Position numbers and translations under genes: made by a program
In this document: piece after piece, positions 17,199 through 59,173 of the stretch
Layout: the number at the start of each line of letters is the position of its first letter
Position numbering within the stretch: the stretch's first letter is position 1
Assembly: GCF_019974155.1 (NCBI RefSeq)
Contig: NZ_AP025158.1
Coordinates: forward strand, 806,001-870,000
Direction: 5' to 3'
Source: Thermus thermophilus
GTDB lineage: Bacteria > Deinococcota > Deinococci > Deinococcales > Thermaceae
DNA: 64,000 bases
Notes under the pieces: model-generated
Told to the model about the DNA's origin: nothing
Databases searched by the model: none
What the model saw: only the letters and a program-made list of their open reading frames with translations

Positions 17199-17307
17199 TA
17201 AGAACTCCCCGTAGGCTTTTCCCTTATCACGAGAACGTCGCGCTGGCCGTGTCCTCTTCTACGAGTGGCCTGGGAGCACTGGGGAACAGGATCAGGAGAA
17301 TTTCTTA
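17199..17307. mobile_element. 109-bp MITE derived from an IS630-type element
   Basis: The left end (TAAGAACTCCCC) matches the left end of the IS630 copy at 17348. The right 45 bp (GGATCAGGAGAATTTCTTA) match that copy's right end. TA dinucleotides bound it on both sides, as expected for IS630/Tc1-type insertion. There is no coding sequence inside, so it must be mobilised by a transposase supplied in trans. Confidence 0.65.
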
Positions 17308-17309
17308 TC

Positions 17310-17347
17310 ACCCCTCAAGGATACCACTCTTTTACGACAGCCTCTGA
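17310..17347 (-). repeat. Inverted left end of the IS5 element
   Basis: These 38 bp are the reverse complement of the IS5 left end at 11682-11719, including the whole 19-bp terminal repeat. The element's outer terminus (CAGCCTCTGA) directly touches the IS630 left end. No transposase is attached. Confidence 0.75.
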
Positions 17348-18483
17348 TAAGAACTCCCCCTGGGTTTTTCTCTTAGTATGGGGTCATGCGGCTGACCAAA
17401 CACCAACGCCGCCCCCGGCTGGAACTCAAGCTGCGGCATCACCCGGACAACCTGCACGCCCTCTACCGGGAAAGCGAAGACCCCGTGGAACGCGCCCGCT
17501 GGCACGCCATCTGGCTCCTCGCCACAGGCCACTCCATCCCCCAGGTGGCCCAGACCCTGGGCTACTCCACCCGCTGGGTCCGCAACACCCTCCACCGCTA
17601 CAACGAAGGCCAGCCCATGGCCGACCTCCGGCACCAAAACCCAGGCCAGCCCCCCTTGCTCTCCCCGGAGCTTCAGGAAGCCTTCCGCCAGGCCCTCCTC
17701 CAGCCCCATCCCCAGGACGGGATATGGACGATAAGGAACGCCGCCCTGTGGCTCTCGGAGAGGCTGGGCCGTCCCGTGGACCCCAGGCGGGCCTGGACCT
17801 GGATGAAGCGCCTGGGCTTCGCCCCCCTCCGCCCCCGTCCCCGGCACCGGGAGAGGGACGTGGAAGAGGGGGAGGCCTTCAAAAAAAACTCTTCTTCACC
17901 GTTGTCCTCCTGAAGTGCCTCTTCCCCTGGCTTGTCCTGGAGCTTTGGGCTTTTGACGAACACAGGTTGGGCCTGAAGCCCGTGTACCGGCGGGTGTGGG
18001 CGCCCCGGGGGAAGACGCCCCTGGCCTGGGTGCGGCCGCGGTACCGGTGGCTTTACGTGTACGGCTTCGTGCGTCCGGGTACAGGGGAGAGCGAGTTTTG
18101 GCTTTTGCCCACGGTGAACGCTGTGGTCTTCTCGGAGGTGCTAAGGCGCTTTGCCCGGTTGCGTGGGGCTGGGGAGGGGAAGCTTTTGCTTTTGGTCTTG
18201 GACCGGGCGGGGTGGCACGTGTCGGGGCGGGTGGAGGTGCCGGAGGGGGTGGGTTTGGTCTTCCTGCCGCCCTACTCTCCCGAGCTCCAACCCGTGGAGC
18301 GGGTGTGGCCTCTGGTGGACGCGGTGGTGGCCAACGGGCGGGTGGAGACGGAGGAGGAGCTTTGGGCGAGGGTGGAGGCCCGGTGCGCCTACCTGCAGAC
18401 CCAGCCGGGCCTGATTCGGAGCCATACCCTCTTTCACTGGTGGCCGGGAGGATGCTGAGGGAATGGATCAGGGGGATTTCTTA
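17348..18483 (+). mobile_element. IS630-family insertion sequence, about 1.14 kb
   Basis: It is bounded by TA on both sides, with ends TAAGAACTCCCCCTG and its imperfect complement in GGATCAGGGGGATTTCTTA. It holds one transposase in two frames and is flanked by loose IS5 ends on both sides. Confidence 0.85.
17386..18458 (+). CDS. IS630-family transposase with programmed -1 frameshift
   Basis: Frame one starts at ATG 17386 and carries the helix-turn-helix head (HSIPQVAQTLGYSTRWVRNT) and a winged-helix segment (QDGIWTIRNAALWLSERLGR). It would stop at 17913. The DDE domain lies in the -1 frame: D and E in LWAFDEHRLGL, D in LLVLDRAGWH, E in PELQPVERVWPLV. The switch falls on eight A bases at 17881-17888 followed by C, placing the canonical slippery heptamer A-AAA-AAC at 17883-17889 in the right register. 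This makes programmed frameshifting far more likely than a mutation. Confidence 0.88.
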
Positions 18484-50379: not shown

Positions 50380-50781
50380 CTACAGGGTGATCACCTGGTC
50401 CACCCGGCCCGCCAGGGCCCGGTAGAGGTCGGGGAAGCACCCCACCTCCACCCCCTCCACCACGTGGGGGGCCACCCGGCACTCCCCGGGGGTGGTGCGT
50501 CCCTCCCCTTCCGGAGTGCACCAGCGGGGCTCCCCCGTGGCCAGCCCACGCTCCAGGGCGCAGAGGTCGCACATCATGAGGAGGATGCCCTTCTCCTTGG
50601 CCACCTTGGCGAGCCGCTCCCCGATGGGGTTGCCCTTCTGCAGGATCAGGGTGTTGTCGTCAAAGAAGAAGATCCCCACCACCTCCACCCCGTGGGTCCC
50701 CGCTTCCAGCTGGGGAAGGATCATCTGGCCGAGCTTGTGGCTTGCCGCTCTAGGGCTTGAGAGCACGTAGGCTACGCGCAC
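50380..50781 (-). CDS. DsrE-like protein (SaoD-type)
   Basis: 133 residues. An alpha/beta fold opens with MRVAYVLSSPRAASHKLGQM and contains ILLMMCDLCALERGLATGEP and RWCTPEGEGRTTPGECRVAP, a set of cysteines in the part where DsrE/F proteins carry sulfur-transfer or metal-binding cysteines. GTG 50781 is preceded by GGAGGTG. The gene has its own promoter (TTGACA-17-TATCAA) with a Fur-type palindrome over the -10, so metal control is likely. Related annotations call it SaoD; its activity is unknown. Confidence 0.7.
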   Translation of the reverse strand: MRVAYVLSSPRAASHKLGQMILPQLEAGTHGVEVVGIFFFDDNTLILQKGNPIGERLAKVAKEKGILLMMCDLCALERGLATGEPRWCTPEGEGRTTPGECRVAPHVVEGVEVGCFPDLYRALAGRVDQVITL

Positions 50782-50799
50782 GGTTCACCTCCGAGTTTA

Positions 50800-50828
50800 T
50801 TGATAATCGTTTCTCAGTTATTTGTCAA
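50800..50828 (-). promoter_or_regulatory. Promoter of the DsrE-like gene with Fur/Zur-type box
   Basis: Leftward TTGACA (50828-50823), 17 bp, TATCAA (50805-50800). The imperfect 16-bp palindrome TGATAATCGTTTCTCA (50801-50816; symmetric TGAnAAnCGnTTnTCA) overlaps the -10 and half the spacer, a repressor position. Confidence 0.65.
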
Positions 50829-50867
50829 CTTATTGAGGCCGGGCCAGCCCGGCCCCAGCCGGATCCC

Positions 50868-52025
50868 TTAGTGCTCCACCCCCGCCACCTGGAAGAGGGC
50901 CACGGCCCAGGGCGCCCCGCCCACGGGGAAGCGCCCTGCCACCTTGAAGCCCTCCAGGTCCACCTTCACCACCTCGCCCTTGGCGGGGTCCGCCAGGAAG
51001 GCCACCCCGTGCCCCACCGCCAGCCCGGGCCGGGGGGCCCCTTGGGCCCAGGGGGTCACGGCCTCCAGGCTCCCCACCACCCGGCGCGCTTTGGGGTCCA
51101 GCTTGTGGAGGCGTCCGTCCGCGGTGAGGGCGTAAAGGGCCTCCCCTTCGGGGTCAAAGGCGAGGTGCAGGGGAGGGGCCGGAAGGGCGAGGGCCTCCAG
51201 GTGCCCCTCCTGGGGATGGATGAAGAGGATCCCTGCCCCGAAGTTCCCCACCAGGAAGGGGTGGGCGGGGTGGGCGGTGAGCGTCCCCGTGCGCACCCCT
51301 TGGGGGGCCCCGGCAGGGTAGGGGAGCTTCCGGCCCAAGAGGCCCTGGCCCCGGGCTTCCACCAAGAGGACCCCGTCTGAGCAACCGAAAACGGCCACGT
51401 TCCCCAAGACCGCCTCCCCGTGGAGCCGGGGGCAGGCCTGGGGCAGGGTGAGAACCCGCCTGCCCTCCAGGGTGTAGGCCTCCACCTGGCCCCGCTCCAT
51501 CCCCCCCACCAGGAGGACCTCCCCCAGGAAGGCCACGGCCCCGTGGTCCGCCCCTCCTGTGGCCACGAGCCTCGGGGTGAAGTCCAGCCCCAGGCGCCTC
51601 AGGTCAAAGAGGGCCACGGTCCCGTCCCCGTCGTGGAAGACGGCGAGGTGCTGCTCCCCCACGAAGGCGTGGGTGGGCTTGGGCCCCGTGCGCAGGGTGG
51701 CGGCCACGTAGGGGACCTCCTCCTTCACGTCCTGGTGGTCCCCGTGGTCCTCCAGGCGGAAGCCCCCGAAGAGGAAGGAGAGGGCGCCCGCCTCGCCGTG
51801 CACCCCCAGGACGTACTGGCCCCCGGGGAGAGGGTACAGCCTTGCCGGGGAGGGGACGGTGAAGCGGCCGAGTTCCTTCCCCTCCTCGTCCAAGACCAGG
51901 ACCAGAGGCCGCTGGGCATCCGCCACGGCCACGCGGGTGAAGGTTCCTTCCCCGCCGTGCCCATGGGCCAGGGCCACGCCTGAGGTCAACGCCACCGCCG
52001 CCAACCAAGACGCGCTCCTTCGCAT
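50868..52025 (-). CDS. AztD-like periplasmic zinc chaperone (beta-propeller)
   Basis: 385 residues with a signal peptide (SASWLAAVALTSGVALA) ending next to a His-rich stretch HGHGGEG. The remainder is a WD40-like propeller of YVTN type with metal-suited histidines (EDHGDHQDVKEEVPY, THAFVGEQHLAVFHDGDG, GGADHGAVAFLG, CPRLHGEAVLG). AztD proteins hold zinc and hand it to the binding protein AztC of an ABC importer. Here the znuA/aztC-like gene ends 3 bp upstream. The match rests on context, fold and histidine pattern. Confidence 0.75.
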   Translation of the reverse strand: MRRSASWLAAVALTSGVALAHGHGGEGTFTRVAVADAQRPLVLVLDEEGKELGRFTVPSPARLYPLPGGQYVLGVHGEAGALSFLFGGFRLEDHGDHQDVKEEVPYVAATLRTGPKPTHAFVGEQHLAVFHDGDGTVALFDLRRLGLDFTPRLVATGGADHGAVAFLGEVLLVGGMERGQVEAYTLEGRRVLTLPQACPRLHGEAVLGNVAVFGCSDGVLLVEARGQGLLGRKLPYPAGAPQGVRTGTLTAHPAHPFLVGNFGAGILFIHPQEGHLEALALPAPPLHLAFDPEGEALYALTADGRLHKLDPKARRVVGSLEAVTPWAQGAPRPGLAVGHGVAFLADPAKGEVVKVDLEGFKVAGRFPVGGAPWAVALFQVAGVEH

Positions 52026-52028
52026 GGT

Positions 52029-52916
52029 CTACCTCCGTTCCCTCACCGCTTCGCAAAGCCTTTCCCGGTTCCAACGGAGGAGTTCCAGGTAGCCCGGAAC
52101 CCTCCGGTCCAGGACATCCGTGTAGAGGACCACAAGCCTGGCCCCCAGTTCCTCCGCCAGGCGGCGCAGGGGGGCCGGGTCGTACTGGGGCTCGGCCGCC
52201 ACCAGGTCCACCCCCCTAAGCTCCGCCTCCCGGAGGAGGGCGATCCGCCCCTTCACCCCCTCCTCCGCCCCGTGGGCGCTCCGCAGGGCCCCAACCACCT
52301 CCAGGCCGTAGCGGCGGGCCAGGTAGGAGAGGGAGAGGTGGGCCACCACCAGGCGGAGCCTCCGCCCGCCCAGGCAGGCCCGGAGGGCGGCGTCCTCCTC
52401 CAGGGCCTTACGGCGAAGGCTTTCCAGGTTCCTCCGGAAGGCCGCCTCCCCCCTGGGGTCCAGGTGCAGGAGTTCCTCCAGGATGACCTCGGCGTACCGC
52501 ACCCCGTAGGTGGGGTCCAGCCACATGTGGGGGTCGCAGTCCCCGTGGAGGTGGACCCCCCTTTCCTGGAGGCCCCGGAGGCCGCAGATGGGGTCGGGCA
52601 TCCTGGGGGCGAGTTCCAGCACCTCCGCCCCCGGGGGGAGGAGGGCCTTGAGCCTGGGCAGGTAGGGCTCGAGGCCAAGCCCGTTGGCGATGAGGAGCCG
52701 GGCCCCCGCGAGCTGTTGCACCGCGGAGGGGCGCAGGTCAAAGGCGTGGGGGTCCGCCCCCGGGGGGACTATGCTTTCCACCCGGAACCGCTCCCCGGCC
52801 ACCGCCTGGGCGAGGCTGGCCAGGACGGGGGTGGTGGCCACCACCCCCTGGGCCAGGGCCAGGGAGGCCCAAAGGGCAAGAAGCCACGGGCCAAGGACGC
52901 GCCACGTCCTCGTCAC
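52029..52916 (-). CDS. znuA: Zinc ABC transporter substrate-binding protein (ZnuA/AztC family)
   Basis: 295 residues of the cluster A-I metal-binding family. The expected ligands are H57 (GADPHAFD), H130 (CDPHMWLDP), H193 (VVAHLSLSY) and D267 (LYTDVLD). The His-rich loop between strands is short (GVHLHGDCD), as in AztC rather than E. coli ZnuA. GTG 52916 opens within the end of the preceding gene. Its permease and ATPase genes are not in the window. Confidence 0.9.
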   Translation of the reverse strand: MTRTWRVLGPWLLALWASLALAQGVVATTPVLASLAQAVAGERFRVESIVPPGADPHAFDLRPSAVQQLAGARLLIANGLGLEPYLPRLKALLPPGAEVLELAPRMPDPICGLRGLQERGVHLHGDCDPHMWLDPTYGVRYAEVILEELLHLDPRGEAAFRRNLESLRRKALEEDAALRACLGGRRLRLVVAHLSLSYLARRYGLEVVGALRSAHGAEEGVKGRIALLREAELRGVDLVAAEPQYDPAPLRRLAEELGARLVVLYTDVLDRRVPGYLELLRWNRERLCEAVRERR

Positions 52917-53335
52917 GCTCCCACCCCTTCACCGAAGAGGGCCTTCCAGTCCTTCAGGTGCCGCCTGGCCCCAGGGGGCAGGCGGCGCAGGAACCGGCCC
53001 CGCCCCTCCCCCCGCGCCCGGGCCACCTGGGCCTCGTAGGCCTTGAGGAAGGGCAGGAGGTGGGCCAGGCCCTCGGCGAAGGGGAGGGGCTCCGCCTGGG
53101 GGTGGACCTCCGGGGGGTAGGGGGGAAGGGGGGCCCGGTAGAACCGCTCCTTGGGCCGGTGGTAGAGGACCCCCCGGTGCCAGATCCCCGTGGAGTGGAG
53201 CACGGTGTCCTCCCGGAGGTAGAGGCTGGAGCCTACCCCTTGGGGGTGGGGCCGCTTGGCGAAGCCCAGCTCCTCTAGGAGGCCGTGGGCCGCCTCGAGG
53301 CCCATGAGGTACATGACCACGGGCATAGGGTTCAT
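52913..53335 (-). CDS. Conserved-looking protein of unknown function in the zinc operon
   Basis: 140 residues with no signal peptide and no domain I recognise. The N-terminal half reads MNPMPVVMYLMGLEAAHGLL, then SLYLREDTVLHSTGIWHRGV and LYHRPKERFYRAPLPPYPPE; the rest is Arg-rich and helical. Four histidines (HST, WHRG, YHRP, VHPQ) could bind metal. ATGA and GTGA overlaps tie it tightly to the propeller gene before and znuA after, so a part in metal handling is likely. Confidence 0.7.
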   Translation of the reverse strand: MNPMPVVMYLMGLEAAHGLLEELGFAKRPHPQGVGSSLYLREDTVLHSTGIWHRGVLYHRPKERFYRAPLPPYPPEVHPQAEPLPFAEGLAHLLPFLKAYEAQVARARGEGRGRFLRRLPPGARRHLKDWKALFGEGVGA

Positions 53336-54528
53336 GGCCGTACCAGGACGAGGCGGGTGGGGCTTCCCCCCGTGCGCAGGTAGCGCGCCACCTGGCCGCG
53401 GGCCGCGTCCACCTCCGCCACCAGGCCCAGGTGGGGGAGGCTCACGTAGACCAGGCCCCGCTCCTCCCAGGGGGCGAGGTCCGGGTAGATGGCCCCCCCG
53501 GTGTCCTCGTCCACCTCCGGGAAGGGCCTGGGGGCGACCCGGACCTCCTTAAGAAGCCTCCCCTCCCGGGCCTCCCGCACCTGGAGCCTCCCGTCGGTGA
53601 GGAGGACGTAAAGCCTCTCCCCGTCCGCCGCTCCCCGGAGGAAGACCCCGCTCAGGGGGATGGGGGTGAGGCGCAGGCCCACGGGGTCCAGGCGCTGGAG
53701 GTGCTTTACCCCATCGGAGTAGCCGAAGAAGACCCCCTTCCCCTCCAGGAAGGCCCCGATCCGCTCCCCGGGCACGGGGTAGGGGATGCGCTGGAGCTCC
53801 CTGGCCGCCTCCACGGCCAGGACCTCCCGGGCGCAGGCGAAGAAGCTCCGCCCCGTCTCCCGGTGGAAGGCCTCCCCGTGCTCCACGGGGCAGGGGAAGC
53901 GGCCGCCCTCCTCCCCGCCCAGGCCCTTGGGGTAGAGGACCACCTGCCCCCGGGCCAGGAGGGTGAGGTAGGTGCCCTCGGGGGCCTCCACCAGGTGGTA
54001 GTGGTCGGGGTTGGGAAGCCGGATCCGCTCGTGGAGGAAGGCGTTTTCCGGGGCCAGGGCCTCTTCCCCGAAGAGGAGGGCCTCCCCGGTGCGCTCGGAG
54101 AAGGCGAGGAGCCGGCCCCTGTAGGTGTAGGCCTCCGCCCCGTGGCCGATGTTCCAGCCCTTGCCCAGGAGGAGGGTCTTGGCCACCACGGGACGGCTCC
54201 ACCGCCCTTCCTCCTTCCCCGTCCAGACCACGGTGAGCCACTGGCGGTCCGTGTCCCTCCCCCGGGACACCAGGAGGTACCGGCCCGAGGGGGCGGCCAC
54301 CAGGCTCATCCCCCGGGGGGGCAGGGAGAGCTCCGCCACCACCTTGCCCTCGGGGAGGTCCACCGCCAGGAGGCGGGTTGTCCCGGGGCGGTTGTCCAGG
54401 GCGAAGAGGCGGGCCTCCGCCCGGTAGACCTCCGGGGCCTCCGGGACCGCGGCGTGGCCGAGGGCCGGAGAAAGGAGGCCGATGGCCAGAAGGCCCGCCC
54501 AAACAAGGGTTTTTTGCGCCATTCTCAT
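53332..54528 (-). CDS. Secreted beta-propeller protein of the zinc operon
   Basis: 398 residues from ATG 54528 (GGAGGTG 9 nt upstream; ATG 54522 also possible). A signal peptide (TLVWAGLLAIGLLSPALGHA) leads a YVTN-like propeller. Metal-suited residues occur in NIGHGAEAYTYRG, NPDHYHLVEAPEG, and FPCPVEHGEAFHRETGRSFF, which has two cysteines nearby. It is a distant relative of the AztD-like protein at the other end of the operon. It is the first gene behind the Zur-type promoter. A second zinc chaperone is the best guess. Confidence 0.72.
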   Translation of the reverse strand: MRMAQKTLVWAGLLAIGLLSPALGHAAVPEAPEVYRAEARLFALDNRPGTTRLLAVDLPEGKVVAELSLPPRGMSLVAAPSGRYLLVSRGRDTDRQWLTVVWTGKEEGRWSRPVVAKTLLLGKGWNIGHGAEAYTYRGRLLAFSERTGEALLFGEEALAPENAFLHERIRLPNPDHYHLVEAPEGTYLTLLARGQVVLYPKGLGGEEGGRFPCPVEHGEAFHRETGRSFFACAREVLAVEAARELQRIPYPVPGERIGAFLEGKGVFFGYSDGVKHLQRLDPVGLRLTPIPLSGVFLRGAADGERLYVLLTDGRLQVREAREGRLLKEVRVAPRPFPEVDEDTGGAIYPDLAPWEERGLVYVSLPHLGLVAEVDAARGQVARYLRTGGSPTRLVLVRP

Positions 54529-54551
54529 AGCACCTCGCACCTCCGCTTTTA

Positions 54552-54581
54552 GATAATGAAAGTGCATTATCATTTTGTCAA
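54552..54581 (-). promoter_or_regulatory. Zinc-operon promoter with Zur/Fur-type palindrome
   Basis: Leftward TTGACA (54581-54576), 17 bp, CATTAT (54558-54553). The palindrome GATAATGCACTTTCATTATC (54552-54571; perfect 7-bp arms, 6-bp centre) covers the -10 and spacer. The AT-rich site stands out in GC-rich DNA and fits repression by a Zur-type regulator when zinc is plentiful. Confidence 0.72.
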
Positions 54582-54792
54582 GCCCCGGGACCCAAGCGGC
54601 TCCCCATTGATTTCGCAACACGGGTTGCCCGAAACAAGGCTCGGAAGCTTCCCTTTAGGGCCCCCGCCGCGGCAGGGTGCTTAGCCCCCTCTTTCCCCCT
54701 CTAGGCCGCCATGGTCCGGGAGACAAGCTTAAGCGCCGGGAAAACCCCCTCCCTTGATCCTTGGCGACTCTTATGCAAATCTGAGCCAAGAT

Positions 54793-56850
54793 ATGAACCA
54801 CCTTAGAAAAACGGAAGTGTTCCTCAACCGCTTCGCCCTGCGGCTTCTGAACCCTGAGGAGCTTAGGCCTTGGCACCTACAGGTGGTTTTGGACCCTCCG
54901 CCGGGGCGGGAGGAGGTGTACCCCCTTCTCGCCCAGCTGGCCCGTCGGGCGGGGGGCGTTACGGTGCGCATGGGAGACGGCCTCGCCTCCTGGTCGCCCC
55001 CTGAGGTCCTGGCCCTGGAGGGCACCTTGGCGCGAATGGGGCAGACCTACGCCTACCGCCTCTACCCCAAGGGGAGGAAGCCTCTGGACCCCAAGGACCC
55101 CGGGGAGCGGAGCGTGCTTTCGGCCCTGGCCCGAAGGTTCCTTCAGGAGCACCTCCGGCGCCTCAATGGGGTCTGGGTGGAGGGGTTTGCGGTGTACCGG
55201 AAGGAGCACGCCCGGGGGCCCGGGTGGCGGGTGCTTGGGGGGGCCGTCCTGGACCTTTGGGTTTCCGACTCGGGGGCGTTTCTCCTAGAGGTGGACCCCG
55301 CTTACCGGATCCTCTGCGAGATGTCCCTCGAGTCCTGGCTCGCCCAAGGCCACCCCCTGCCCAAACGGGTCCGGAACGCCTACGACCGGCGCACCTGGGA
55401 GCTCCTCCGGGTAGGAGAGGAAGACCCCAAGGCGCTCCCTCTCCCGGGCGGCTTAAGCCTCCTGGAGTACCACACTTCCAAGGGCCACCTCCAGGGCCGG
55501 GAAGAGGGGCGGGTGGCCTGGGTGGCGGACCCCAAGGATCCGCGAAAGCCCATCCCCCATCTGACGGGCCTTTTGATCCCCGTCCTTACCCTGGAAGACC
55601 TTCATGAAGAAGAGGGGAGCCTGGCCCTCTCCTTGCCCTGGGAAGAGCGGCGCCGAAGGACCCAGGAGATCGCTGGCTGGATTGGCCGGCGCCTGGGCCT
55701 GGGCACTCCCGAGGCGGTGCGCACCCCGGCCTACCGCCTGGAAGCCCCTAGGCTCGTGGGCCGCAAGGCCGTAGGCAAGCCTGCGGACGCCCTTCGCGTG
55801 GGCCTTTACCGGGCCCAGGAGACCGCCCTGGCCCTCCTGCGCCTAGACGGGGCCCAAGGGTGGCCGGAGTTTCTTCGGCGGGCCTTGCTCCAGGCCTTTG
55901 AGGCGAGCGGGGCCCCCCTCCGTTTGCACACCCTCCGTGCCGATCCCGCTCAAGGCCTTGCCTTCCGCGAGGCCCTGCGGGAAGCCAAGGAGAAGGGGGT
56001 CCAGGCCGTGCTGGTGCTCACCCCGCCCATGACCTGGGAGGGCCGCAACCGCCTGAAGGCCCTTTTCCTTAGGGAAGGCCTTCCCAGCCAAATCCTCAAC
56101 GTCCCCTTGCGGGAGGGGGAACGCCACCGCTGGGAGAACGCCCTCCTAGGCCTCCTGGCCAAGGCCGGGCTTCAGGTGGTGGCCCTAAGGGGCCCCTACC
56201 CCGCCGAGCTCGCCGTGGGCTTTGACGCTGGCGGAAGGGAGTCTTTTCGCTTCGGGGGCGCGGCCTGCGCCGTGGGTGAAGACGGCGGCTACCTCCTCTG
56301 GACCCTCCCCGAGGCCCAGGCCGGGGAGCGGATCCCCCAGGAGGTGGTTTGGGACCTCTTGGAGGAGACCCTCTGGGCCTTCAAACGCAAGGCGGGGAGG
56401 CTTCCTTCCCGGGTCCTCCTCCTTCGGGACGGCCGCGTGCCCCAGGACGAGTTCGCCCTGGCCTTGGAGGTCCTTGCCCGGGAAGGCATAGCCTACGATT
56501 TGGTTTCGGTGCGCAAGTCGGGTGGGGGGCGGGTCTATCCTGTGCAGGGGCGCCTGGCGGACGGGCTTTTCGTTCCCTTGGAGGACAAGACTTTTCTCCT
56601 CCTCACCGTCCACAGGGACTTCCGGGGCACGCCCCGGCCCCTGAAGCTGGTGCACGAGGCGGGGGACACGCCCCTCGAGGCCCTGGCCCGCCAGATTTTC
56701 CATCTGACCCGCCTCTACCCGGCGAGTGGGTTCGCCTTTCCCCGGCTTCCCGCTCCCCTTCACCTGGCGGACCGTCTGGTGAAGGAGGTGGGCCGGTTGG
56801 GGATCCGTCACCTCAAGGAGGTGGACCGGGACAAGCTCTTCTTCGTCTAA
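54793..56850 (+). CDS. ago: Prokaryotic Argonaute, DNA-guided DNA endonuclease
   Basis: 685 residues, the length of T. thermophilus Ago. Domains by comparison: N (1-107), L1, PAZ (178-266), L2, MID (338-462), PIWI (463-685). The catalytic tetrad is complete at the known positions: D478 (VGFDAGGRES), E512, D546 (LLRDGRVP) and D660 (LHLADRL). TtAgo uses 5'-phosphorylated 13-25 nt DNA guides to cut invading plasmid DNA and helps separate replicated chromosomes. ATG 54793 (MNHLRKTEVF) is preferred over TTG 54754, although no good ribosome site precedes it. No helicase, nuclease or other Ago partner gene is adjacent. Confidence 0.97.
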   Translation: MNHLRKTEVFLNRFALRLLNPEELRPWHLQVVLDPPPGREEVYPLLAQLARRAGGVTVRMGDGLASWSPPEVLALEGTLARMGQTYAYRLYPKGRKPLDPKDPGERSVLSALARRFLQEHLRRLNGVWVEGFAVYRKEHARGPGWRVLGGAVLDLWVSDSGAFLLEVDPAYRILCEMSLESWLAQGHPLPKRVRNAYDRRTWELLRVGEEDPKALPLPGGLSLLEYHTSKGHLQGREEGRVAWVADPKDPRKPIPHLTGLLIPVLTLEDLHEEEGSLALSLPWEERRRRTQEIAGWIGRRLGLGTPEAVRTPAYRLEAPRLVGRKAVGKPADALRVGLYRAQETALALLRLDGAQGWPEFLRRALLQAFEASGAPLRLHTLRADPAQGLAFREALREAKEKGVQAVLVLTPPMTWEGRNRLKALFLREGLPSQILNVPLREGERHRWENALLGLLAKAGLQVVALRGPYPAELAVGFDAGGRESFRFGGAACAVGEDGGYLLWTLPEAQAGERIPQEVVWDLLEETLWAFKRKAGRLPSRVLLLRDGRVPQDEFALALEVLAREGIAYDLVSVRKSGGGRVYPVQGRLADGLFVPLEDKTFLLLTVHRDFRGTPRPLKLVHEAGDTPLEALARQIFHLTRLYPASGFAFPRLPAPLHLADRLVKEVGRLGIRHLKEVDRDKLFFV

Positions 56851-57644: not shown

Positions 57645-57664
57645 GGGGCCTGGAGGTGAGGAAC

Positions 57665-59173
57665 GTGAGGCGAAGGGACCTTCTGAAAGGCGGCTTGGCC
57701 GCGGGGGCCTTGGCCCTCCTGCCCCGGAGCCAGGCCCAGGGGGCGCCTTCCCAAGACGGCCCCTCTTTGGGCAGGCGGTACCGCAACCTCATCGTCTTCG
57801 TCTACGACGGGTTTTCCTGGGAGGACTACGCCATCGCCCAGGCCTACGCCCGGAGGCGGCAGGGGCGGGTCCTGGCTCTGGAGCGCCTCCTCGCCCGCTA
57901 CCCCAACGGGCTCATCAACACCTACAGCCTCACCAGCTACGTCACCGAGTCCAGCGCCGCGGGGAACGCCTTTTCCTGCGGGGTGAAGACGGTGAACGGG
58001 GGGCTCGCCATCCACGCCGACGGCACCCCCCTCAAGCCCTTCTTCGCCGCGGCCAAGGAGGCGGGGAAGGCCGTGGGGCTCGTGACCACCACCACCGTCA
58101 CCCACGCCACCCCGGGGAGCTTCGTGGTCTCCAACCCCGACCGGAACGCTGAGGAGCGCATTGCCGAGCAGTACTTGGAGTTCGGGGCCGAGGTCTACCT
58201 GGGGGGCGGGGACCGCTTCTTCAACCCCGCCAAGCGCAAGGACGGGAAGGACCTCTACGCCGCCTTCGCCGCCAAGGGGTACGGGGTGGTGCGCACCCCC
58301 GAGGAGCTCGCCCGTTCCAACGCCACCCGGCTCCTGGGCATCTTCTCCGACAGCCACGTGCCCTACGAGATTGACCGCCGCTTCCAGGGCCTTGGGGTGC
58401 CGAGCCTCAAGGAGATGGTCCAGGCCGCCCTACCCCGGCTCGCCGCCCACCGCGGGGGCTTCGTCCTCCAGGTGGAGGCGGGGCGGATTGACCACGCCAA
58501 CCACCTGAACGACGCCGGGGCCACCCTTTGGGACGTCCTGGCGGCGGACGAGGCCCTGGAGCTCCTCACCGCCTTCGTGGACCGGAACCCGGACACCCTC
58601 CTCATCGTGGTCTCGGACCACGCCACCGGGGTGGGGGGGCTTTACGGGGCCGGGCGGAGCTACCTGGAGAGCTCCCACGGGCTGGACCTCCTGGAACCGC
58701 AACGCGCGAGCTTTGAGCACATGCTCCGGGTCCTCGGCCAGGCCCCGGAGGCTTCCCAGGTCAAGGAGGCCTTCCGGGCCATGAAGGGGGTGGCCCTCGA
58801 GGACCCCGAGGCGGAAAGGGTGGTGCGGGCCATCCGGGAGAGGGCCTACTGGCCGGAGGGGGTGCGCCACGGGGTCCAGCCGGCCAACACCCTGGCCTGG
58901 GCCATGGTGCAGCGGAACGCCCAAAGGCCCGACCGGCCCAACATCGGCTATGGCTCGGGCCAGCATACGGCGAGCCCCGTGATGCTCCTCCTCTACGGCC
59001 AGGGCCTCCGCTTCCTCCAGCTTGGCCTTTTGGACAACACCCACGTCTTCCGCCTCATGGGGGAGGCCCTGGGCCTCCGCTACCAGAACCCGGCGATGAG
59101 CGAGGAGGAGGCCCTGGAGATCCTCAAGGCCAGGCCCCAGGGGACGCGCCACCCCGAGGACGTGCTGGCCTAA
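57665..59173 (+). CDS. Tat-exported alkaline phosphatase
   Basis: 502 residues from GTG 57665, chosen because GGAGGTGA lies 7-8 nt upstream; GTG 57656 is the alternative. The Tat signal is RRRDLLKGGLAAGALALLP. The phosphatase core shows D48 (IVFVYDGFSWED), the nucleophile serine in SYVTESSAAGNAF, QVEAGRIDHANHLNDAG and VVSDHATG (metal His/Asp) and a late metal His in YGSGQHTASPV. It hydrolyses phosphomonoesters in the periplasm and is thermostable in Thermus. Its stop overlaps the opposite-strand cobyric acid synthase gene by 4 nt. Confidence 0.92.
   Translation: MRRRDLLKGGLAAGALALLPRSQAQGAPSQDGPSLGRRYRNLIVFVYDGFSWEDYAIAQAYARRRQGRVLALERLLARYPNGLINTYSLTSYVTESSAAGNAFSCGVKTVNGGLAIHADGTPLKPFFAAAKEAGKAVGLVTTTTVTHATPGSFVVSNPDRNAEERIAEQYLEFGAEVYLGGGDRFFNPAKRKDGKDLYAAFAAKGYGVVRTPEELARSNATRLLGIFSDSHVPYEIDRRFQGLGVPSLKEMVQAALPRLAAHRGGFVLQVEAGRIDHANHLNDAGATLWDVLAADEALELLTAFVDRNPDTLLIVVSDHATGVGGLYGAGRSYLESSHGLDLLEPQRASFEHMLRVLGQAPEASQVKEAFRAMKGVALEDPEAERVVRAIRERAYWPEGVRHGVQPANTLAWAMVQRNAQRPDRPNIGYGSGQHTASPVMLLLYGQGLRFLQLGLLDNTHVFRLMGEALGLRYQNPAMSEEEALEILKARPQGTRHPEDVLA

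Follow-up and report, generated by a model that had tools for sequence, protein, structure and literature searches.

The window analysed here, a 64,000-nucleotide stretch of a Thermus thermophilus genome (C1:806001-870000 of the 2.17-Mb, two-contig genome G000), carries on its minus strand a putative accessory zinc-starvation module. From 54528 down to 50868, genes for a first beta-propeller protein, a 140-residue protein, a ZnuA-type solute-binding protein and an AztD homologue follow each other as one overlapping unit, and a gene for a DsrE-like protein lies beyond them. The features are:

53332..54528, minus strand: first propeller, a divergent AztD paralogue (NCBIfam, fold match, ligand columns)
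52913..53335, minus strand: 140-residue protein of an unnamed family (conserved linkage; no usable Pfam, NCBIfam or PDB match)
52029..52916, minus strand: ZnuA-type solute-binding protein, znuA1 (Pfam ZnuA, E 5.5e-51)
50868..52025, minus strand: AztD homologue (NCBIfam AztD, E 6e-49; PDB 6ck1, E 1.5e-40)
50380..50781, minus strand: DsrE-like protein of the SaoD/DsrE family NF040913 (192 bits against a cut-off of 152), with its own promoter
54557..54572, minus strand: putative Zur-type box TGATAATGCACTTTCA in the propeller promoter (25.5 bits, matrix from relatives)
50801..50816, minus strand: putative Zur-type box TGAGAAACGATTATCA in the dsrE promoter (19.7 bits on this strand, 22.2 on the other)

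The stop of the propeller gene and the start of the 140-residue gene overlap by 4 bases, as do the stop of the latter and the start of znuA1, and the gap between znuA1 and aztD is 3 bases. The open reading frame (ORF) coordinates thus agree with the gene order, strand and overlaps given in a preliminary description of this DNA. The longest ORF of the propeller begins at a GTG at 54621; because this codon lies upstream of the operator, the true start is probably the ATG at 54528 or 54522.

The propeller promoter has the form TTGACA-17-CATTAT and is covered by GATAATG-N6-CATTATC at 54552-54571, exactly as first described. When spacers of 5 to 7 bases are allowed, this palindrome is found only here in the 2.17-Mb genome. 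It is an extended form of a shared 16-mer, TGANAANNNNNTNTCA, whose box overlaps it and which we found, with at most one mismatch each, in all four promoters of zinc-type genes identified in the genome: those of the propeller (TGATAATGCACTTTCA), dsrE (TGAGAAACGATTATCA), an unlinked znuCB pair (TGAAAATGCGCTATCG, one mismatch) and a second znuA gene, znuA2 (TGATAATGAAATATCA). In the propeller and dsrE promoters the 16-bp box sits between the -35 and -10 elements, and its form in relatives is approximately TGATAATGCRTTATCA. The dsrE promoter had been credited with the same architecture, which holds for its TTGACA and TGAGAAACGATTATCA, whereas its -10 element is less clear.

With up to one mismatch, the 16-mer had 26 matches on one strand of the whole genome and 27 on the other, compared to 5 and 9 for a reversed control; in view of these counts, most such matches are not zinc-gene operators. 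Exact matches to the loose 16-mer came as eight rows at seven places, three of which are zinc-type promoters; the other four, three within ORFs (L079, L081, L082) and one at an ORF junction (L076), were taken as chance occurrences. A weight matrix trained on 35 sites of relatives was used to scan 134 kb of the genome's own DNA in six stretches, and the zinc promoters were the four best distinct sites, with 29.5, 25.5, 22.2 and 17.2 bits on the better strand. A first-order simulation yielded 0.05 sites above 18 bits and 0.25 sites above 16 bits per 64 kb. By these scores, three of the boxes stand out clearly, whereas its score would by itself leave the znuCB site borderline. A further box-like sequence in the window, at 17295-17310 (16.3 bits), stands just ahead of what we read as a transposase-like gene (17386-17913), and was set aside.

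The box is also conserved in relatives, which for the propeller, dsrE and aztD promoters were counted at 45% identity or more with a match start within 40 residues. With at most one mismatch it was present in 9 of 13 propeller promoters, 10 of 16 dsrE promoters and 8 of the 17 readable znuC promoters (26 loci); among the 24 znuA2 loci, 23 promoters could be read, and 20 of these have it. Upstream of aztD, we found it at 9 of 10 loci outside Thermus and at none of 11 inside Thermus, where aztD is internal to an operon. Furthermore, of 50 genomes of the family, 22 contain a strict form of the box, TGAKAATGNNTTATCA, at 31 places in total, while the reversed control occurs in none of the 50. Of the 31 places, 26 were examined as loci, and each of these has a znuA, zur, aztD, dsrE, propeller or CobW-family gene no more than 250 bp away; 22 were assigned by script, and L111, L116, L120 and L123 were settled from the other locus comparisons as znuA, propeller, dsrE and zur/znuA promoters. 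At two of the 26 (L104 and L121), the gene concerned encodes a CobW-like GTPase at a distance of about 180 bp, and a different gene flanks the other side. Two small proteins (L104:1640-2011 and L054:6444-6989) have VVSLELGLRGVLMY in common; one is encoded divergently from a boxed CobW-like gene and the other, in another genome, from a lone propeller gene, and they are perhaps a further member of the regulon.

Three Fur-family genes were found in the genome. One encodes a PerR protein above the NCBIfam cut-off ('manganese-dependent PerR'), and the other two proteins fall below all NCBIfam cut-offs. The candidate Zur gene, C1:597203-597568, is unlinked to the module, and the nearest structures to its product in the PDB are 3mwm and 7vo0 (both 'putative metal uptake regulation protein') and 2o03 (Mycobacterium tuberculosis FurB), the first two of which we take to be Zur of Streptomyces coelicolor. 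An orthologue exists in 26 of 27 Thermus genomes, the one lacking it being 65% complete. In all 12 genomes of genus g4, presumably Meiothermus, that have the 140-residue gene, the gene of this Zur-like orthologue and znuA are transcribed divergently and flank the box, and the same arrangement recurs at further strict-box loci.

Several observations weigh against control of these promoters by Zur. The best NCBIfam name for the candidate is PerR (75.7 of 200 bits), inspection of the stretch upstream of its gene in its own genome revealed no box, and the comparison with the PDB covered this protein alone among the three Fur proteins. The strict box has no copy in the window's own genome. The box is missing from 4 of the 13 propeller promoters, 6 of the 16 dsrE promoters (four of them directly behind aztD), 3 of the 23 znuA2 promoters and 9 of the 17 znuC promoters, although these nine have it in the same place with two mismatches (eight cases) or three (one case). 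The znuCB site, at 17.2 bits, barely exceeds the next site at 16.3 bits in a scan whose matrix was trained on sites partly selected by their resemblance to the box, and two of the six stretches scanned were picked for holding zinc-type genes. Nevertheless, because related genomes have the box in the space separating znuA from a Zur-like gene, we regard Zur as the likely regulator of the boxed promoters. The Zur-type control proposed in the preliminary description thereby gains comparative support, from the box shared by four promoters and from the zur-box-znuA arrangement in relatives.

The two propellers belong to one family. The AztD homologue (50868-52025) conserves all seven zinc ligands of Paracoccus denitrificans AztD, which according to PMC6689063 are H124, H167 and H218 for site 1 and H99, H102, D104 and the C-terminal H408 for site 2. 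It scored 166.7 bits, and we call it a homologue because the NCBIfam AztD cut-off of 400 was not reached. The first propeller matched the same model over its full length with 25 of 400 bits (E 6.5e-6) and is 27% identical to the window's AztD homologue; in a tree, its nine rows grouped with full support to the exclusion of nine AztD rows. Its predicted fold (mean predicted local distance difference test, pLDDT, 85.5) was closest to AztD (Z 34 over 342 residues, 2.9 A), an answer biased toward AztD as 8 of the 17 rows in the alignment behind the model are AztD sequences; the next matches were NirS, NirN and NirF (Z about 26). We conclude that, judged by sequence and predicted fold, the first propeller is a divergent AztD paralogue and, as it lacks site 2, should not be filed as AztD. 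The expectation of two different beta-propellers was thus half right: they differ, as a homologue and a paralogue of the same protein.

None of the four site-2 ligands is kept in any of the nine first-propeller rows, and the DHGDHxD hairpin is shortened; absence of the C-terminal His is certain for the window's protein, the other rows ending where the match ends. At pore site 1, two His are present in 9 of 9 rows, and the third place is Glu in eight and His in one. The family also has a conserved acidic insert around DEDTGGAIYPD, and we read the N-terminal hydrophobic segment as a signal peptide. In P. denitrificans, only site 2 of AztD passes zinc to AztC, and a site-2 mutant still binds zinc (PMC6689063). 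Since site 2 is lost and two pore His are kept, and site 2 is the sole transfer site in P. denitrificans, the first propeller is predicted to hold zinc without handing it over to ZnuA by the known route. Alternatively, it may have ceased to bind zinc and taken a new job, for example as a scaffold or as a carrier of a haem-like cofactor. The low identity to AztD, the loss of site 2, the Glu replacing a pore His, the acidic insert and the NirS, NirN and NirF folds all favor such a change. Yet AztD remains the best fold, with the bias noted, two pore His persist in every row and the third in one, and the protein shares its operon and box with zinc genes, so that we hold a new job to be possible but doubtful. 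In some genomes the propeller gene is broken or shifted, by one TGA in G046 and into two pieces in G063 and G058, and in G051/T. brockianus GE-1 its frame overruns the usual end (loci L052, L055, L056 and L053 are concerned), and the module seems to decay in some lineages.

The preliminary description had supposed that the locus may work with a distant importer, a role well suited to the znuC-znuB pair, which is unlinked and has the box in its promoter. The sole ABC-3 (ZnuB-type) permease above cut-off in the genome is encoded at C1:1647501-1648262, about 787 kb from the locus, a second match (C1:1339460) falling just below cut-off. The ATPase gene znuC (C1:1648276-1649013) stands ahead of the permease gene, has the box in its promoter and is present in 26 of 27 Thermus genomes. 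The second znuA gene, znuA2 (C1:1511477), has neither a permease nor an ATPase gene next to it; orthologues occur in 24 of 27 Thermus genomes, with none in G065 (65% complete). In G063 (L055) and G070 (L047), a search at E 1e-40 found only the znuA of the module, and znuC is present; ZnuA1 may be the partner of ZnuBC in these two genomes, unless a lower-scoring binding protein serves there. In a relative from another family (L070), aztD, znuA, znuC and znuB stand together, as in a classical operon.

When aligned with AztC (5w56), ZnuA1 matches its three His and its Asp, which are zinc-type ligands. In alignments to 5w56 and 5hx7, the third ligand place is His in ZnuA1 and Glu in MntA and MtsA. 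The protein libraries lean otherwise and count against zinc: in NCBIfam, the top-ranked model for each ZnuA protein is the deinococcal MntC (146 and 220 of 400 bits), followed by AztC, and the top-ranked model for the ATPase is MntA (186 of 400 bits). Together with the 'manganese-dependent PerR' in the genome and with the Mur protein of Deinococcus radiodurans, a manganese-responsive Fur protein (PMC4171365), these ranks would suit a manganese module, with binding proteins, ATPase and regulator of the manganese type (Mur, MntR or PerR control) and AztD as a bystander. Against this, the MntC and MntA matches stay far below cut-off, and the permease ranks AztB first (162 of 280 bits). The third ligand of ZnuA1 is His rather than Glu, the AztD homologue retains all seven zinc ligands, and in relatives the box adjoins the Zur-like gene and is common to CobW-family genes, COG0523 genes being frequent members of Zur regulons (PMC6103462). 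We consequently rate a manganese module as improbable and zinc as the likely, though not certain, metal. The earlier assignment to zinc acquisition thus finds comparative support, with manganese left open by the library ranks.

A search of 111 genomes of the order yielded 29 with the 140-residue gene, namely 13 of 27 Thermus genomes, 12 of genus g4 and four others. It adjoins znuA, aztD or the gene of a CobW-family (COG0523-type) GTPase in 28 of these 29 copies; the exception, in G058, is a fragmentary remnant next to a propeller gene that is likewise broken. The order is propeller-140-residue gene-znuA in Thermus, znuA-140-residue gene in g4, aztD-140-residue gene at L072 and L060, and GTPase-140-residue gene at L144 and L153, where the neighbours score above cut-off for both Pfam CobW and CobW_C. 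On plasmid pTHEOS01 of T. oshimai, the order is dsrE-znuA-aztD-propeller-140-residue gene. Because its neighbours have been repeatedly reshuffled within one regulon, this pattern argues for a role of the protein in the zinc regulon. That the protein is a passenger without a zinc role is very unlikely, as the lack of a usable fold or family match and the single invariant His would allow it and the 28 of 29 linked copies, in at least four gene orders, speak against it.

An alignment of 25 rows of the family had 19 invariant columns, one of them His, so that the 'His-containing' character first noted is not the defining trait. On our own reading the protein has no signal peptide, and is for that reason probably cytosolic. 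Pfam and NCBIfam scans of 25 members returned only stray single-member hits (E 0.06 or worse), the family profile had no hit among PDB sequences at E 10, and the predicted model (pLDDT 89) had no Foldseek match at E 0.001 and a best VIA-align match of Z 2.6 over 71 residues, which is unusable. Lack of a fold match is no proof of a new fold. A contig scan for kin revealed four close Thermus copies only, and the profile search was confined to the order.

The module is patchy in Thermus (13 of 27 genomes), and the 140-residue and propeller genes were found on five Thermus plasmid records, two of T. thermophilus, two of T. brockianus and one of T. oshimai. T. thermophilus SNM1-7 has the window's gene order followed by dsrE and a CobW-like sequence, and T. 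brockianus GE-1 has an alkaline phosphatase ahead of the module and dsrE and a GTP-binding protein behind it. In the window's genome, the module lies on the main contig beside an Argonaute gene (54784-56850, plus strand, 688 residues), which is divergent from it and matches T. thermophilus Ago (PDB 3dlb, 685 residues) with 1415 bits; in well-known strains the Argonaute gene is plasmid-borne. Further along the window, at 57656-59173 on the plus strand, is an alkaline phosphatase with a twin-arginine signal (Pfam), and on pTB1 of T. brockianus an annotated alkaline phosphatase directly precedes the propeller. Alkaline phosphatases are commonly zinc enzymes.

In the DsrE-like protein (50380-50781, minus strand), CDxC and CFPDLY are kept in 10 of 10 aligned rows; the presence of a protein of a sulfur-transfer family inside a zinc regulon is an unexplained pairing. 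In G066, two membrane-protein-like genes separate aztD from dsrE (L045:10744-13316), and a similar pair lies near a lone propeller gene in G033 (L054:3753-6359). A reading of the L045 gene between aztD and dsrE as cytochrome bd was dropped, as it had no Pfam match.

From the observed gene layout, the shared and conserved box, the loss of ligands and the linkage of the 140-residue gene, we infer that the locus is probably an accessory zinc-starvation module under Zur-type control that feeds an unlinked ZnuBC. When zinc is plentiful, the Fur-family Zur-type repressor (C1:597203-597568) would occupy the 16-bp boxes and keep the promoters off. When zinc is scarce, the repressor would be released, and the propeller-140-residue-znuA1-aztD unit, dsrE, znuCB and znuA2 would be made together. 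AztD would take zinc in the periplasm and pass its site-2 zinc to ZnuA1, which would dock on ZnuBC, the chromosomal importer in shared use. The first propeller, devoid of site 2, probably holds a pore zinc and most likely would store or gather zinc or load AztD, while the 140-residue protein would have a cytosolic role in zinc starvation, perhaps alongside COG0523-type GTPases. A bolder version, which we offer tentatively, is a relay of zinc through two propellers encoded on a mobile module of the plasmid type: the paralogue, with its pore site only, would gather or store zinc and load AztD, and AztD would serve a ZnuA that shares a chromosomal importer. In this version, the 140-residue protein would be the first of a new family of cytosolic zinc-starvation proteins, acting together with COG0523-type GTPases or in their place. 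Bearing on such a stand-in, the window's genome has the module, and a PF02492 search of it gave one match, which scores 324 bits as a MeaB-type protein and 30 as CobW and by these scores was not counted as a COG0523 candidate.

The locus resembles the Zur-controlled AztABCD system of P. denitrificans in that an AztC-like binding protein adjoins an AztD with all seven ligands and that a palindrome is shared by zinc-type promoters; PMC5387054 places a Zur motif before aztA, a COG0523 gene and a divergent zur/znuA pair of that organism. It differs in that aztA, aztB, aztC and aztD do not form one operon here, the permease and ATPase genes being unlinked, in the additional site-2-less propeller and the 140-residue protein, and in its 16-bp TGA..TCA palindrome, compared to the 15-bp Paracoccus motif (PMC5387054). 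As in Zur regulons, a palindromic putative operator is shared by zinc-uptake promoters, here those of znuA, znuCB, dsrE and the module and in relatives also those of aztD and CobW-family genes, and a Fur-family gene is present whose nearest solved structures are Zur proteins. Unlike the 9-1-9, 7-1-7 and 23-bp forms described elsewhere (PMC6103462), the putative box is 8-8 symmetric without a central base. One zinc importer served by two binding proteins, as proposed here, is found in Streptococcus pneumoniae, where AdcCB works with AdcA and AdcAII (PMC8416893). The Adc layout is otherwise distinct: it has another regulator, and we know of no AztD in it. A literature search on zinc uptake or Zur in Thermus retrieved no paper, with most subscription papers beyond reach, and we do not claim that none exists.

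The ordinary part of these findings is a ZnuA/AztD zinc locus under a putative Zur-type box, a variant of the AztABCD type that is split from its importer. Less ordinary are that split, the second propeller without a transfer site and a linked family that is undescribed in the libraries searched. The first propeller would be a natural counterpart of the laboratory site-2 mutant, with AztD's site for holding zinc separated from its site for passing it on, and the role of the AztD pore site therefore becomes testable. Through the 140-residue proteins, zinc starvation would gain a link to an unclassified protein family that is present in several bacterial families of the Thermus-Deinococcus order searched. 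Furthermore, the shared boxes lead us to propose that Thermus, a genus amenable to genetics, has a Zur regulon, and a zinc module found on plasmids there seemingly relies on a chromosomal importer.

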